A stretch of DNA of 64,000 bases from Methanolobus vulcani (GTDB taxonomy: Archaea; Halobacteriota; Methanosarcinia; Methanosarcinales; Methanosarcinaceae). Shown here one piece after another: positions 12,410 to 19,743 of this stretch; the first letter of the stretch is position 1, and the number at the start of each line of letters is the position of its first letter. The notes below the pieces were generated by a model that was given only the letters and a program-made list of their open reading frames with translations, made no database searches and was not told the DNA's origin. The stretch is from the NCBI RefSeq assembly GCF_006546655.1, contig NZ_VIAQ01000015.1:1-64000 (forward strand). Reading direction: 5' to 3'. The position numbers were made by a program, and so were the translations under genes.

Positions 12410-12599
12410 TGAAACAGTATTTAAGTGCCGAGATTGATGTGAGATAAGTTACATTGCTTTTAAGGCTTTCGGACAATATTCTATACATCTTTTTATTTTT
12501 TAGGCGGATGATGTGGGTACTGATATAATTCAACAAGATTATATAATATATTCTTTATAATATGTCTGTTGAAACACAGCTTCTAGTTTGGAGGTTCCA

Positions 12600-13397
12600 A
12601 TGATAACTACTGATATATCTGCTAAAATTGAAAATTTTGATATTACAAAGGATGTTCTCAATCAGCTTCCATGTATGGTCATGGCAGTTGATCGTGACTT
12701 TAATGTTCTCTTCCTCAATGCAGTTGGATGTAAATGGCTTGAAGAGGATCTTGAGAACCTCGAAGGCAAAAAATGTTATGATATAGTGCAATCACCGCAT
12801 TGTCGTACAGACAATTGTCGTGTAAAGCAGGCAATGGAGAACGATCGCGTATATGTATGGCGAAATAAAATGACAGCTGCCGGGAAGACATTCCCCATAG
12901 AATATACTGCTGCTCCTTTGAAGGACAAAGAGGGTAACATAGTGGGTGGATTGGAATATGTTGTCGATATAAGTGAGAGAGTAAAGATCGAGGAAGAGGT
13001 GCGTGCCCACAGCCGTACGATCATGGAGCTCTCAACACCTGTCATCAAACTGTGGGATGGGATAGTAATCCTCCCACTTGTTGGTGTCATTGACACTATG
13101 CGTGCTCAGCAGATAATTGAGAATCTATTGTTCTCTATAGTTGAAAATGAGGCAGCTGTGGCAATACTCGATGTTACGGGTGTTCCTATGATAGATACAA
13201 GCGTTGCCCAGCATATTCTTAAGACAGTAAGTGCAGGGAAGATGCTTGGTGCTGAGGTGATCATCACTGGATTCAGTCCCAATGTTGCACAGACCCTTGT
13301 GACATTAGGTGTCAATCTGGGTGATATAAAAACCAGTGGCTCATTACGTGATGGTGTCTCAAAAGCATTCGATATAATTGGTAAGAAGCTGGTCTGA
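12600..13397 (+). CDS. rsbR: RsbR-like PAS-STAS stressosome sensor
   Basis: 265 aa. Residues ~20-125 form a PAS domain with Cys59, Cys68 and Cys73. Residues ~145-262 form a STAS domain closely resembling the C-terminus of Bacillus RsbR. The two phosphorylated threonines of RsbRA (T171, T205) correspond to Thr166 (VIDTMRAQ) and Thr200 (MIDTSVAQ), with the same spacing of 34. The start is ATG 12600 with GGAGGT seven bases upstream; an earlier TTG at 12588 would swallow that RBS. RsbR proteins form the stressosome shell with RsbS. Here a PAS domain replaces the usual globin-like sensor. It is the first gene of a tightly packed operon divergent from serB. Confidence 0.9.
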   Translation: MITTDISAKIENFDITKDVLNQLPCMVMAVDRDFNVLFLNAVGCKWLEEDLENLEGKKCYDIVQSPHCRTDNCRVKQAMENDRVYVWRNKMTAAGKTFPIEYTAAPLKDKEGNIVGGLEYVVDISERVKIEEEVRAHSRTIMELSTPVIKLWDGIVILPLVGVIDTMRAQQIIENLLFSIVENEAAVAILDVTGVPMIDTSVAQHILKTVSAGKMLGAEVIITGFSPNVAQTLVTLGVNLGDIKTSGSLRDGVSKAFDIIGKKLV

Positions 13398-13410
13398 TCC
13401 GGGTGATTGC

Positions 13411-13782
13411 ATGCAGATACCTATACTGAAATTGAAGAACATACTGTTGACTTCTATACAGAGCGACATGACCGATGATGATGCTCTTAAGTATCAATCA
13501 GATGTTGTATCTTACCTTGAAAAGAGTGATGCAAAAGGTCTGATTATAGATATAACTGCAATGGATATTGTTGATTCCTTTATGGCTCGTGTGATTAATG
13601 AGACTGCCAGAATGGCGCGTCTTATGGGTGCAAAGGTTGTTCTTTGTGGTATGCAGCCCATGGTTGCACTGACACTTGTAGAAATGGGACGTGAACTTAT
13701 TGGTGTTGAAACAGCTCTGAATCTTGATAAAGGATTTGACAAACTTCTGGAAATGATTACAGAAGGAGTTGATGATCATTAG
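13411..13782 (+). CDS. rsbS: RsbS-like STAS protein
   Basis: 123-aa single STAS domain, nearly collinear with Bacillus RsbS from its IPILKL start. The phosphorylated serine (Ser59 in Bacillus) is Ser56 here in MDIVDSFMAR, shifted only by the shorter N-terminus. The family-typical MGAKVVLCGMQP segment follows. The start is ATG 13411 with GGTGAT nearby, 13 bases after the rsbR stop. In the known system RsbS is the core stressosome scaffold that holds the RsbT kinase and releases it when phosphorylated. The end overlaps rsbT. Confidence 0.93.
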   Translation: MQIPILKLKNILLTSIQSDMTDDDALKYQSDVVSYLEKSDAKGLIIDITAMDIVDSFMARVINETARMARLMGAKVVLCGMQPMVALTLVEMGRELIGVETALNLDKGFDKLLEMITEGVDDH

Positions 13783-14179
13783 TGAGAAAAGCATAGAACT
13801 TCATATTGAAGATGATATTCTCATAGCCCGCAAGGTTGCCAGGCAGGAAATGGCCGATATTGGCTTTGGTTCTGCCGATCAGACTCGTATGGCTACAGCC
13901 ATATCTGAATTGACAAGGAATGTTATTAAGTATGCAGGACATGGCGTGTGTCACATCATCACAGAATCTACTCCCTCGGAAATCGTCATAAAAGTTGAGA
14001 TTGAGGATTATGGTCCGGGAATCGATGATATCAATAAGGCTATGGAAGATGGGTATACCACAGGCGGTGGTCTTGGTGCAGGTCTTCCCGGTGCAAAGCG
14101 TCTTGTCAATGATTTATCTATAGAATCACGTCCGGGATTGACTAAAATTAATTTGGAGATGACACGTCCGAATGTCTGA
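13772..14179 (+). CDS. rsbT: RsbT-like serine/threonine switch kinase
   Basis: 135-aa GHKL-type ATPase/kinase. The N-box is ISELTRNVIKYAG, the G1 box EDYGPGI and the glycine lid GGGLGAGLPGAKRL, all as in Bacillus RsbT. It should phosphorylate RsbS Ser56 and RsbR threonines, then leave the stressosome to bind a downstream partner. The start is ATG 13772 with GGAG upstream; it overlaps the rsbS end by 11 bases. Context makes the kinase with the RsbU-like N-terminus at 15185-16201 its likely target. Confidence 0.93.
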   Translation: MIISEKSIELHIEDDILIARKVARQEMADIGFGSADQTRMATAISELTRNVIKYAGHGVCHIITESTPSEIVIKVEIEDYGPGIDDINKAMEDGYTTGGGLGAGLPGAKRLVNDLSIESRPGLTKINLEMTRPNV

Positions 14180-14615
14180 AATTAAAGATTGTTCATTTCC
14201 TGAAAATGGTCTGGAGGTAGTGGTGGAAATAAAGAACCTCGCACATGTTGCAAATGCACAGACGCAGGTTCTTTCGATAGCGAGAAAACTCTGTTTTTCT
14301 GAAATTGATGCGCATAAAGCAGCCACTTCTGCATCAGAACTTGCTTCAAACCTGGTGCACCACACATTAATTGGTGGTACCATAAGAATCCGTGAGCTCA
14401 GAAAAGAAGGATATGTGGGAATAGAGATTGTATCTAACGATTCAGGTCCGGGTATAATGGATGTTGAGCAGGTCTTACAGGATGGTTATTCAACAGGTCC
14501 GGGTCTTGGATCAGGATTACCTTCCATTAGAAGGATGATGGACGAACTTGAAATTTCAGTCATAGACAATACAAACACTTGTATTACTACCAGGTTGTGG
14601 TGTCCATGCGAGTAG
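14172..14615 (+). CDS. second RsbT-like GHKL ATPase
   Basis: 147 aa with the same fold as RsbT but clearly diverged. It has N-box ASELASNLVHH, G1 box NDSGPGI and lid GPGLGSGLPSIRRM. The conserved Asn and Asp of the ATP site are present, so it is probably active as an ATPase or kinase. It overlaps the rsbT stop by 8 bases and its own end overlaps the phosphatase start. A paired second ATPase is seen in extended bacterial Rsb modules. Its role could be phosphorylating a different STAS partner or forming a heterodimer with RsbT; this is inference. Confidence 0.85.
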   Translation: MSEIKDCSFPENGLEVVVEIKNLAHVANAQTQVLSIARKLCFSEIDAHKAATSASELASNLVHHTLIGGTIRIRELRKEGYVGIEIVSNDSGPGIMDVEQVLQDGYSTGPGLGSGLPSIRRMMDELEISVIDNTNTCITTRLWCPCE

Positions 14616-15178
14616 CAACAGAATCCCGTTCATTTAACAACGACGTGCATTGTGGTGACCAGTGTGACTGGTGGGTAGAAGATGATTTAGTAACGTTGTG
14701 CATGATCGATGGTCTCGGTCATGGGTTACATGCTGAAGAGGCAGCAAAAGAAGCTCTTGATTATGTTTCCACTCATCTGGATGAATCTCTTGACAGATTA
14801 TTCGCCGGGTGCGATAAGGCTATCAAACATACAAGAGGTGCGGCAATGAGCATTGCACGTATCGATCAGGGTAATTCCAGTCTTGAATATGCTGGTGTTG
14901 GTAATACCCGTTCGATGATGTATGGAGTAAAGTCCTCTCATCTGCCTTCAAGCTGGGGCATCGTAGGAGGTGGATACCGGCACCTGTATATTGAGAGAGC
15001 AGACCTTTCTCTTTACGATCTTGTAATCATGTGGACAGACGGTATACCTGAGCATATAAAGATTTCATCTTATGATATGTATCTGTTACAGGACGAGCAA
15101 CAACTGGCAAAGAGGATACTCGAGGATTATGGACGTATGACGGACGATGCGACCATACTGGTATATGCAAAGGGGTGA
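14606..15178 (+). CDS. rsbX: RsbX-like PP2C phosphatase
   Basis: 190-aa PP2C/SpoIIE-type phosphatase matching Bacillus RsbX in length and order. It has NDVHCGDQC, then metal-binding DGLGHG at 35-40, then RGAAMSIARI, YAGVGNTRSMM and a C-terminal TDG / TDDATIL pair of aspartate motifs. RsbX dephosphorylates RsbR and RsbS and resets the stressosome. The start is ATG 14606, overlapping the previous stop by ten bases; a start 27 bases earlier is less likely because it only adds residues encoded inside the previous gene. The stop TGA overlaps an ATG that opens a four-codon frame just before the kinase gene. Confidence 0.9.
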   Translation: MRVATESRSFNNDVHCGDQCDWWVEDDLVTLCMIDGLGHGLHAEEAAKEALDYVSTHLDESLDRLFAGCDKAIKHTRGAAMSIARIDQGNSSLEYAGVGNTRSMMYGVKSSHLPSSWGIVGGGYRHLYIERADLSLYDLVIMWTDGIPEHIKISSYDMYLLQDEQQLAKRILEDYGRMTDDATILVYAKG

Positions 15179-15184
15179 TGAAAT

Positions 15185-16201
15185 ATTCATAAAGCTGAAT
15201 TCAATGATAGGTATTATGGTATCCTGAAGGGTTATGTTTCTACTCGTGAAGAAAAGTATCTCATGAGGTCAGAGGATCTTGGTTCTGAGTTGGTTAGATT
15301 CAATGTGCCCCCGGAAGATATTATTGAAATGCATGAGATTGCTGTAAAGAAGCTGGCAGCAGATCTACCTGCGAAAAATATGATGGAATCTGTAGGTTTC
15401 CTTTCAACTCCTCTTGTAGAAGTTATGATGGCTTATGGTCTTGCATTCAGACGATGGATAGAGGACCTTGAAAAAAGCAAGAAGGAACTTGAAGTTTATG
15501 CTCAGGAATTGCAACGCTCCAATGAGCTGAAAGAACTTTTTGCCGATATCATGCGCCACGACCTTTTAAATCCTGCCTCACTAATAAACGGATTTGTTTC
15601 TGTCCTGCTGGAAAAGGAGGAAGATGATAAGAAGAGATCCTACCTTTCAAAAATAGAACTAAGTAACCGGAACCTCATCTATATCATCGAAAAAGCAGCG
15701 GAATTTGCCAAATTGGATTCTGTTGAAGGACTTGATTTTTCAATTCATGACCTGGGCTTAATCCTTGGAAACATAGTTGATAGTTTCAGACCTCGATTTG
15801 AAGAGAATGAAATGACAGTAGGTATGCAAATAAATAGCTTTTATCCTTCAATGGCGAACACTGTTATTGATCAGGTCTTTATCAATCTTATTTCGAACGC
15901 TATAAAATACAGCCCAAAAGGAAGTCATGTGGAGATTAGCATATCTGATCTGGGCGAACAGTGGCAGGTCAATGTAAAAGATCAGGGAACCGGTATCCCT
16001 GAAGAAGACAGAGAATTGGTCTTCACTCGTTTTTCAAGACTTGATAAGGTTAAAAAAGGAAGTATTAAAGGAACAGGACTGGGTCTTGCAATAGTTCATA
16101 AGATCGTAACTCTTCATAATGGTGAGGTTGGTGTGGATAGCAATTATCCAGAAGATGGCAGCTCATTCTGGGTGCGCCTCAACAAGGCACATACGGATTA
16201 G
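15185..16201 (+). CDS. soluble histidine kinase with RsbU-type N-terminal domain
   Basis: 338 aa if read from ATT 15185. Residues ~3-90 resemble the RsbT-binding N-terminal domain of Bacillus RsbU: an NDRYYGILKGYV start, then NVPPEDIIEMHEIAV and VEVMMAYGLAF. A short coiled coil leads to a DHp helix with His125 (MRHDLLNP). The CA domain has N-box Asn238, G1 KDQGTGI and G2 GTGLGLAI. There is no membrane segment. The first ATG in frame is 15263, but it would cut the RsbU-like domain. Upstream reading is open to 15182. GGTGAT stands five bases before the ATT. A one-base error after ATG 15178 could instead join MK to this frame. No response regulator lies nearby. Confidence 0.85.
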   Translation: MHKAEFNDRYYGILKGYVSTREEKYLMRSEDLGSELVRFNVPPEDIIEMHEIAVKKLAADLPAKNMMESVGFLSTPLVEVMMAYGLAFRRWIEDLEKSKKELEVYAQELQRSNELKELFADIMRHDLLNPASLINGFVSVLLEKEEDDKKRSYLSKIELSNRNLIYIIEKAAEFAKLDSVEGLDFSIHDLGLILGNIVDSFRPRFEENEMTVGMQINSFYPSMANTVIDQVFINLISNAIKYSPKGSHVEISISDLGEQWQVNVKDQGTGIPEEDRELVFTRFSRLDKVKKGSIKGTGLGLAIVHKIVTLHNGEVGVDSNYPEDGSSFWVRLNKAHTD

Positions 16202-18453: not shown

Positions 18454-19743
18454 ATGAAGAACGGACAAAAAATAATCCTTTGTGTAGGGATATTTTTTGC
18501 ATATATTATTATGTTTGCAGGGACTGCTGCAGCAGATTACAATCCACTTATAATATCAAAGACTGATGGGTGCGATCAAATCGAGCAAGGCGAATCCCTT
18601 CTTTACGAGATTTCCTTTGAAAATCCCAATGGACAGGAAGTAAGTGATGTGATCATTACCGATACTCTTCCTGCTGGTGTGACATTTGTAGATGCCACTG
18701 CTGATGGTAAATGTTCAGATGGTGTTGTTACGTGGAATATAGGTACAATGTCTGCATCTGAATATGATACCGTTTCAGTAACCGTGCAGGTCGATTCTAA
18801 TACAACTGGTAATCTGGTTAACACCGCAGAAATCGAATGCAATGAAAGTGAACAAATAAGCATATGTGAGGATGAGACGGAAGTAGTAATTGTATACCTT
18901 CCACTTATAATCTCAAAGACCGATGGATACGATCAAATCGAGCAAGGCGAATCTCTTACCTACGAAATAACCTTTGAAAACCCCAATGAGCAGGAAGTAA
19001 ATGGTGTGACCATTACCGATGCACTTCCTAAAGGTGTGACCTTTGTAGATGCCACTGCTGATGGTAAATGTTCAGATGGTGTTGTTACTTGGAATAAAGG
19101 TTCAATGGCTGCATTTGAATGTGATGCCGTTTCAGTAACCGTGCAGGTTGATTCTAATACAATTGGTAATCTGGTTAACACTGCAGAAATTGAATGCAGT
19201 GAAATCGGACAAATAAGCAGATGTGAGGATGAGACGGAAGCAATTGCAATGGATTACATTATGGAAGCGATTGCAACTGACTATGTTGCGGAACCGCTGT
19301 CAGTAGCATATATTCCACTTGAGATATCAAAGACCGATGGACACGATAATGTTACTCAAGGCGAATATCTTATCTACGAAATAACCTTTGAAAATCCCAA
19401 TGAACATGAAGTAAATGGTGTGATCATTACCGATACACTTCCCAAAGGTGTGACCTTTGTAGATGCAGATGAAGGTGAATATTCAGATGGTATTGTTACT
19501 TGGGATATAGGTACAATGTCTGCATCTGACTCTGGTTCCGTTTTTGTAACTGTGGTTGTGGATTCAGATCCAAATCGTGAGCTGGTTAACTTTGCAGAGA
19601 TCAAATGCAATGAAATTAGAAAAATAAGCAGCTGTAAAGATAAGACGAAAGTACTTCCAGGAATTCCGGAATTTCCAACAATAGCAATTCCGATGGCTGC
19701 CATACTTGGTCTGGCATTCTTCTTCCAGCGTAGAAAGGATTAA
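18454..19743 (+). CDS. DUF11-repeat surface protein with PEF-CTERM anchor
   Basis: 429-aa secreted protein. The N-terminal signal peptide (residues 1-28) ends near GTAAADY. Three tandem DUF11-type beta-sandwich repeats follow, each opening with LxISKTDG and containing GVTFVDA and NTAEIEC-like segments; they cover about residues 29-145, 150-265 and 287-405. Repeats 1 and 2 share long identical DNA stretches, so they are recent copies. The C-terminus has PEF (in IPEFPTIAIP), a hydrophobic helix and QRRKD, the PEF-CTERM signal recognised by an archaeosortase. The protein is thus expected at the cell surface. A strong RBS AGGTGGTG precedes the ATG. Confidence 0.88.
   Translation: MKNGQKIILCVGIFFAYIIMFAGTAAADYNPLIISKTDGCDQIEQGESLLYEISFENPNGQEVSDVIITDTLPAGVTFVDATADGKCSDGVVTWNIGTMSASEYDTVSVTVQVDSNTTGNLVNTAEIECNESEQISICEDETEVVIVYLPLIISKTDGYDQIEQGESLTYEITFENPNEQEVNGVTITDALPKGVTFVDATADGKCSDGVVTWNKGSMAAFECDAVSVTVQVDSNTIGNLVNTAEIECSEIGQISRCEDETEAIAMDYIMEAIATDYVAEPLSVAYIPLEISKTDGHDNVTQGEYLIYEITFENPNEHEVNGVIITDTLPKGVTFVDADEGEYSDGIVTWDIGTMSASDSGSVFVTVVVDSDPNRELVNFAEIKCNEIRKISSCKDKTKVLPGIPEFPTIAIPMAAILGLAFFFQRRKD
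18550..19620 (+). repeat. Three tandem ~360-bp coding repeats (DUF11)
   Basis: Three direct repeats with periods of about 360 and 420 bp. The stretch around gatgccactgctgatggt occurs identically near 18690 and 19050; the third copy (near 19460) is more diverged. The spacer before the third copy has a short duplicated block near 19240-19285 that encodes two runs of the type AIAxDY. Confidence 0.85.

Follow-up and report, generated by a model that had tools for sequence, protein, structure and literature searches.

A stressosome module in the methanogen Methanolobus vulcani with an RsbU_N-histidine kinase as its predicted output

What could a stressosome control in an archaeon? Stressosome research runs via sigma factors, which are absent from archaea. 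The question is raised by a cluster of six genes in a 64,000-nucleotide stretch (hereafter, the window) at the start of contig NZ_VIAQ01000015.1 (C15) of the 2.92-Mb genome of Methanolobus vulcani. These genes, separated by overlaps or short gaps, encode RsbR, RsbS, RsbT, a second ATPase (W), RsbX, and a histidine kinase (Table 1). A previous sequence-only reading of the window described a complete RsbR-RsbS-RsbT-ATPase-RsbX module in a methanogen and stated that its output must differ from the bacterial one. The module is indeed complete: all six genes are present in this order and belong to the expected families, judging from Pfam matches, PDB matches, and alignments. The statement on the output was correct in that there is no sigma-factor cascade, but incomplete, as the last gene encodes a histidine kinase with an N-terminal RsbU_N domain, the predicted target of RsbT. 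The locus probably represents a stressosome sensing module that has this kinase as its output, reached through docking of RsbT on RsbU_N.

The RsbU_N domain of the histidine kinase

The sequence-only reading recognized the sixth gene, whose listed open reading frame begins at ATG 15263, but overlooked its RsbU_N domain. The frame is open and conserved for 78 bases upstream of that ATG, to position 15185. A start at 15263 was rejected: it would delete helix 1 of RsbU_N, and the preceding 26 codons are under purifying selection. With the start at 15185, residues 1 to ~87 of the kinase constitute an RsbU_N domain, a full-length match to Pfam entry PF08673 (50-53 bits, cut-off 25.5). In a phmmer search of all PDB chains with this N-terminal domain, four entries for the N-domain of Bacillus subtilis RsbU came out on top (1.5e-8 to 1e-7), followed by an unrelated entry at 0.09; in a tblastn search of 72,556 plasmid records, the matches were limited to RsbU of SigB operons. 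The domain can be aligned with RsbU from Lysinibacillus and Listeria. An AlphaFold model of the N-domain (pLDDT 85.9) shows five helices, the last of which (residues 74-111) continues as a linker ahead of the HisKA helices; the model of the whole kinase, made without an alignment, was poor (pLDDT 45). A Foldseek search with the N-domain model returned nothing below 0.2, with KaiA C-terminal domains listed first and RsbU (2j6y) at rank 16, and the fold comparison adds little beyond the sequence. The catalytic part consists of HisKA (2.3e-7), with the phospho-acceptor His125, and HATPase_c (1e-27).

In B. subtilis, RsbT binds the N-domain and the linker of RsbU and causes the linker to adopt a coiled coil, and the same docking mechanism has been proposed for RsbU_N-histidine kinases of Proteobacteria (PMC12143880). 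The contact residues are E24, Y28, I74, and I78 in RsbU and R19, R23, N24, and D92 in RsbT (PMC12143880). In the window kinase, E24 is kept as E23, whereas Y28, I74, and I78 correspond to M27, V78, and M82; in the window RsbT, R19, R23, and D92 are retained, as R20, R24, and D93, and N24 is replaced by Q25.

No ATG, GTG, or TTG codon is found at the conserved kinase start in five Methanolobus genomes (window positions 15170-15190; loci L034, L036, L084, and L197). All five have ATT at the normal spacing after a GGTGAT-type Shine-Dalgarno sequence, and other species have ATG at that place. A conserved AUU is the probable start codon, which possibly limits the level of the kinase.

The link between RsbT and RsbU_N extends beyond this genome. 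Among 393 Halobacteriota genomes, the RsbT family was detected in 28 and RsbU_N in 23, with both present in 16, RsbT alone in 12, and RsbU_N alone in 7 (Fisher test, p 5e-16). These genomes share ancestry and are not independent; the per-genus comparison (10 shared genera, p 5e-8) gives the fairer figure. The two are mostly encoded close to each other; in genome G135, the distance is 44 kb. The effector behind RsbU_N is a HisKA kinase in the window and in loci L039, L120, L124, and L126, a PAS-kinase-REC protein in L042, and a triple-GAF kinase in L048, where a lone receiver is encoded next. In two further loci (L045, 10355-11440, and L049, 6874-7968), the last gene of an R-S-T-W-X module encodes RsbU_N fused to GAF alone, with no recognizable catalytic domain.

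RsbT, its relative W, and the alternative targets

RsbT shares 48% of its residues with its counterpart in the SigB operon of Lysinibacillus and 44% with that of Listeria. As the sequence-only reading had noted, its ATP-site motifs are intact, with all N- and G-box residues present; E46, N50, DxGPG, and GxGLGxGL are invariant, and the gene directly follows rsbS. A search of PDB chains revealed no close solved relative. The nearest named relatives come from Methanolobus sp. UBA118 and M. halotolerans.

The ATP-site motifs of W are intact as well, but the positions at which RsbT contacts RsbU are occupied by Q, L, and S, with both arginines gone. Because of these replacements, W is not favored as the messenger; its sequence argues against such a role. 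W is a divergent RsbT-like protein and the equivalent of the N-terminal half of a fused ATPase-SpoIIE protein that is common in modules of bacteria and haloarchaea; the fused form is seen in locus L051. W evolves much faster than its neighbors, showing 61% identity in genome G024 versus 90-98% for RsbR, RsbS, and RsbT (window 14172-14615 versus L034 10417-10857). In the sister genus, W was not detected between RsbT and RsbX.

The genome encodes a single RsbU_N domain, on the window kinase, and a single SpoIIE phosphatase, RsbX. Its STAS domains number four: those of RsbR and RsbS and two in ~557-residue frames, which are transporter-sized and were classified as transporters by length alone. 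Accordingly, the genome-wide search for STAS and SpoIIE domains revealed no RsbV, second RsbR, or RsbU phosphatase through which RsbT could act. This bears out the earlier claim that the RsbU-V-W-sigB cascade is absent: a downstream set of RsbU PP2C phosphatase, RsbV, and RsbW was not found in this genome, and archaea have no sigma factors such as SigB.

The stressosome core

RsbR combines an N-terminal PAS domain with a STAS domain. In a search of all PDB chains, Vibrio and Listeria RsbR ranked first, with 7o0i, presumably the Vibrio protein, ahead of the others. Thr166 and Thr200, spaced by 34 residues and each within an IDT motif, align column by column with T175 and T209 of Listeria RsbR, which upholds the earlier assignment of these phospho-acceptors. 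An interpretation of RsbR as a YtvA-type LOV photoreceptor was rejected: the match to the NCBIfam YtvA_fam equivalog reached 87.6 bits against a cut-off of 250 and covered only the end of PAS and the STAS domain. Four cysteines of the PAS domain (C44, C59, C68, and C73) are kept in the Methanolobus and sister-genus copies. Since their conservation extends through the sister genus, a redox or metal signal appears plausible and is a reasonable guess.

RsbS is a lone STAS domain. Its top PDB matches are both RsbS chains, 6qcm, which we take to be the Listeria protein, and 6jhk. The phospho-acceptor Ser56, likewise named earlier, lies in a VDS motif and falls in the same alignment column as Ser56 of Listeria RsbS, which is the phospho-site there (PMC9237128). 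The alignments thus place RsbR, RsbS, and RsbT within the respective families, in answer to the membership check proposed along with the sequence-only reading. RsbX is a single-domain PP2C phosphatase with invariant metal-binding residues D18, D35, D145, and D181; its best PDB matches are the SpoIIE-family phosphatase 3zt9, presumably from Moorella, and then RsbX 3w40.

Response regulators

No response regulator gene adjoins the module. Seven stand-alone regulators were compared with the module by co-occurrence in 21 Methanolobus genomes. Most of them are found in nearly all species; C15:258712 is limited to four genomes (that of the window and G001, G008, and G013), and C4:31197 is confined to the window genome. 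A shared core response regulator may still serve the kinase. In other lineages, a receiver-type gene is located immediately 5' of rsbR in the f28 genomes (L124 5315-6010; L127 10016-10654), and a lone receiver follows the kinase in L048 (8650-9018); these are candidates for cognate regulators there.

Proposed mechanism

The components, phosphorylation sites, and docking domain, the co-occurrence of this domain with RsbT, the lack of alternative targets, and the selection on the genes are read from sequence. We infer that the core assembles, that RsbT phosphorylates it, is released, docks on the kinase, and acts on it, and that the switch is then reset. RsbR, as the PAS sensor, and RsbS would form a core that retains RsbT. 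Upon perception of a signal by PAS, RsbT would phosphorylate Ser56 of RsbS and Thr166 and Thr200 of RsbR and depart from the core. The freed RsbT could then dock on RsbU_N of the adjacent kinase and stiffen the helical linker, which leads into the dimerization helices; this may alter autophosphorylation of His125 and thereby how much phosphate reaches a response regulator whose gene lies elsewhere. RsbX is expected to dephosphorylate RsbR and RsbS, resetting the switch. As W lacks the RsbU-contact arginines, its most likely role is at the core, together with RsbX, and not that of a messenger.

Several observations weigh against this scheme. Tyr28 of RsbU, required for RsbT binding in B. subtilis, corresponds to Met27 in the window kinase; at this position, Methanolobus copies have Met or Leu, those of the sister genus have Phe, and several other archaeal relatives have Tyr. 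On the RsbT side, the equivalent of Asn24 is Gln (Q25), so that the interface with RsbU_N is not identical. None of the seven stand-alone regulators follows the presence and absence of the module among the 21 Methanolobus genomes. Two Methanolobus species retain the kinase in the absence of RsbR, RsbS, RsbT, W, and RsbX, so the kinase may act without RsbT. Finally, RsbT-bearing Halobacteriota genomes that lack RsbU_N (12 of 28) show that other outputs exist.

This last point leads to a different scheme, in which the RsbR-RsbS-RsbT-RsbX switch is real but RsbT does not dock on RsbU_N, instead transiently phosphorylating the kinase or another protein, or in which W is the messenger. No RsbU_N was detected on the kinases of the haloarchaeal and scanned bacterial modules (Salipiger, Phaeobacter, Deinococcus, and Halobaculum among them), and in the Vibrio vulnificus modules, also without RsbU_N, the VvRsbT-VvD1 interaction was not seen and transient phosphorylation has been proposed (PMC9237108). 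However, RsbU_N is present on the window kinase, as the sole copy in the genome; RsbT retains the R19 and R23 equivalents, which W does not; and RsbT and RsbU_N co-occur strongly. An output of this kind is therefore quite unlikely for the window. It is also unlikely, if slightly easier to entertain, that the partner switch operates as a small complex, with RsbR and RsbS as separate sinks for RsbT, rather than as a stressosome particle of 1-2 MDa. The RsbR N-terminal domain is PAS, as opposed to the non-heme globin domain in Bacillus, and the f3 genomes encode RsbS-RsbT-kinase-RsbX without an adjoining rsbR gene; nevertheless, the STAS domains of RsbR and RsbS match chains of solved stressosome particles (7o0i, 6qcm, and 7b0u) over their full length. 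Clusters of the RsbS-RsbT-kinase-RsbX type without a neighboring rsbR gene were observed in L039 (7159-9505), L040, and L041.

Evolutionary history and selection

The module is also present in six other genomes of the genus. The same gene order had been suggested as something to look for in archaeal genomes, and it is kept: all Methanolobus copies with both flanks readable lie between serB and mtd, with the order unchanged, and in Methanolobus species without the module, serB adjoins mtd. In genomes G007 (L084 6538-8001) and G020 (L197 5667-7101), the RsbU_N-histidine kinase stands alone between serB and mtd, and the other five genes are absent. Such sites are consistent with loss of the five genes; a kinase-first history would explain them less simply.

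In the tree of RsbR, RsbS, and RsbT, the Methanolobus copies form a group (99/98 support) with those of a sister genus in their family, away from the remaining Methanosarcinales, and bacterial rows fall between the archaeal clades; the tree contains few bacterial rows, from plasmid records only, and its deep branches are weak. A single origin of the archaeal module was not supported, with bacteria between the archaeal clades. Because of this placement of the bacterial rows and the separation of Methanolobus from other Methanosarcinales, transfer of the module between lineages appears likely from the tree. One plasmid record, CP031730 of Stenotrophomonas rhizophila (L057, 5001-8039), is labeled gammaproteobacterial and contains a SigB operon laid out like that of Lysinibacillus (L053), which is probably a case of contamination or mislabeling.

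A transferred cassette could now be decaying and functionless. Its distribution is patchy (6 of the 17 genomes in the tree of the flanking genes, requiring five changes), two species are left with the kinase only, and the window kinase has no standard start codon. Yet dN/dS, where dS could be estimated, is 0.01-0.10 for RsbR, RsbS, RsbT, RsbX, and the kinase and 0.13-0.24 for W, which indicates purifying selection on each of the six genes. Catalytic and phospho-acceptor residues are intact in the aligned copies, and the kinase start without ATG recurs in five species with identical Shine-Dalgarno spacing. Decay is accordingly very improbable.

Gene layout and neighborhood

Start codons were selected by Shine-Dalgarno spacing and comparison with relatives; the preferred starts are listed in Table 1. 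On the flanks, mtd, for the F420-dependent methylene-H4MPT dehydrogenase, is located downstream of the module and serB on the other side. Elsewhere in the window (18454-19743), a surface-protein-like protein of 429 amino acids contains three similar repeats of ~120 residues and a PEF-type sorting-like C-terminal tail (PGIPEFPTIAIPMAAILGLAFFFQRRKD).

Table 1. Genes, domains, and predicted phosphorylation sites of the six-gene module (positions in the window)
Feature	Position	Strand	Preferred start	Basis
RsbR, PAS-STAS, 265 aa	12600..13397	+	ATG 12600 (GGAGGT at 12590)	Pfam PAS_4 1.6e-15, STAS 3.1e-14; PDB best match 1.5e-34
RsbR Thr166 codon (= B. subtilis T171 / Listeria T175)	13095..13097	+		Alignment
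RsbR Thr200 codon (= B. subtilis T205 / Listeria T209)	13197..13199	+		Alignment
RsbS, single STAS domain, 123 aa	13411..13782	+	ATG 13411	PDB 6qcm 1.2e-30, 6jhk 1.4e-30; alignment
RsbS Ser56 codon (= Listeria S56 / B. subtilis S59)	13576..13578	+		Alignment
RsbT, GHKL switch kinase, 135 aa	13772..14179	+	ATG 13772	HATPase_c 8e-11; contact residues
W, second RsbT-like GHKL ATPase	14172..14615	+	ATG 14172	Pfam; motif comparison
RsbX, PP2C/SpoIIE phosphatase, 190 aa	14606..15178	+	ATG 14606	Pfam SpoIIE 6.4e-7; PDB 3zt9 1.3e-18, 3w40 2.4e-10
RsbU_N-histidine kinase ("UK"), 338 aa	15185..16201	+	15185 (probable AUU)	RsbU_N, helical linker, HisKA, HATPase_c (Pfam)
RsbU_N domain, predicted RsbT docking site	15209..15445	+		PF08673, 53 bits, cut-off 25.5
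Kinase phospho-acceptor His125 codon (FADIMRHDLLNPA)	15557..15559	+		HisKA match and sequence

Significance and comparison with known systems

The sequence-only reading regarded an archaeal copy as unusual. This view was not supported: stressosome genes in archaea have already been mentioned (PMC9237108, PMC8942246, PMC10014275), and the RsbT family is found in 28 of the 393 Halobacteriota genomes. RsbU_N-histidine kinases have been described in Proteobacteria (PMC9237108), so both components were known previously. No description of an archaeal RsbU_N-kinase or of a Methanolobus stressosome was found in the literature searched. What the locus and its relatives offer is a concrete, testable target for RsbT in archaea: a histidine kinase that bears RsbU_N, a domain that precedes other effectors in related archaea. 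The locus supports the proposal that RsbU_N with its helical linker is an exchangeable socket (PMC12143880) and extends it beyond bacteria. Natural knock-outs are available in those Methanolobus species whose serB-mtd site is empty or holds the kinase only. As a tentative generalization, for which the odds are somewhat less than even, methanogens might possess a sigma-free general stress response, leading from a redox-sensing stressosome through RsbT and an RsbU_N-kinase into an archaeal two-component pathway, with RsbU_N as an exchangeable effector socket across archaea.

The stressosome of the Bacillus and Listeria SigB operons has orthologous RsbR, RsbS, RsbT, and RsbX with the same phospho-acceptors, and RsbU_N, to which RsbT binds there, is also its predicted target in the window. 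In the window, however, RsbU_N is attached to a histidine kinase rather than to a PP2C phosphatase, RsbV, RsbW, and SigB are missing, the sensor is PAS instead of a non-heme globin domain, an additional ATPase (W) is present, and the host is an archaeon. Four-gene rsbRSTX modules with a downstream histidine kinase/response regulator, known from Proteobacteria, Deinococci, and other groups (PMC9237108; Salipiger L056, Variovorax L150, and Deinococcus radiodurans L151), share the order R-S-T-(ATPase)X-kinase and the lack of a sigma factor. They differ in that, at the loci inspected, the ATPase and SpoIIE are fused and the scanned kinases give no RsbU_N match, whereas in the window W and RsbX are separate and the kinase carries RsbU_N.

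The haloarchaeal plasmid modules from Halobaculum (L051) and Halanaeroarchaeum (L052) are likewise archaeal R-S-T-X sets with a kinase, and the Halanaeroarchaeum RsbR is also PAS-STAS. Unlike the window module, they have no RsbU_N detected on their kinases and form a separate clade in the R-S-T tree; in addition, the ATPase and SpoIIE of Halobaculum are fused into one protein, and response regulators are encoded next to its module. The proteobacterial RsbU_N-histidine kinases (PMC9237108), of which an AlphaFold model has been published for the NreB type (PMC12143880), and the Moorella RsbU_N-GGDEF protein MtG resemble the window kinase in having the RsbT docking domain on a nonphosphatase effector encoded beside rsbT, whereas the window module is archaeal and has a different sensor and a different layout.

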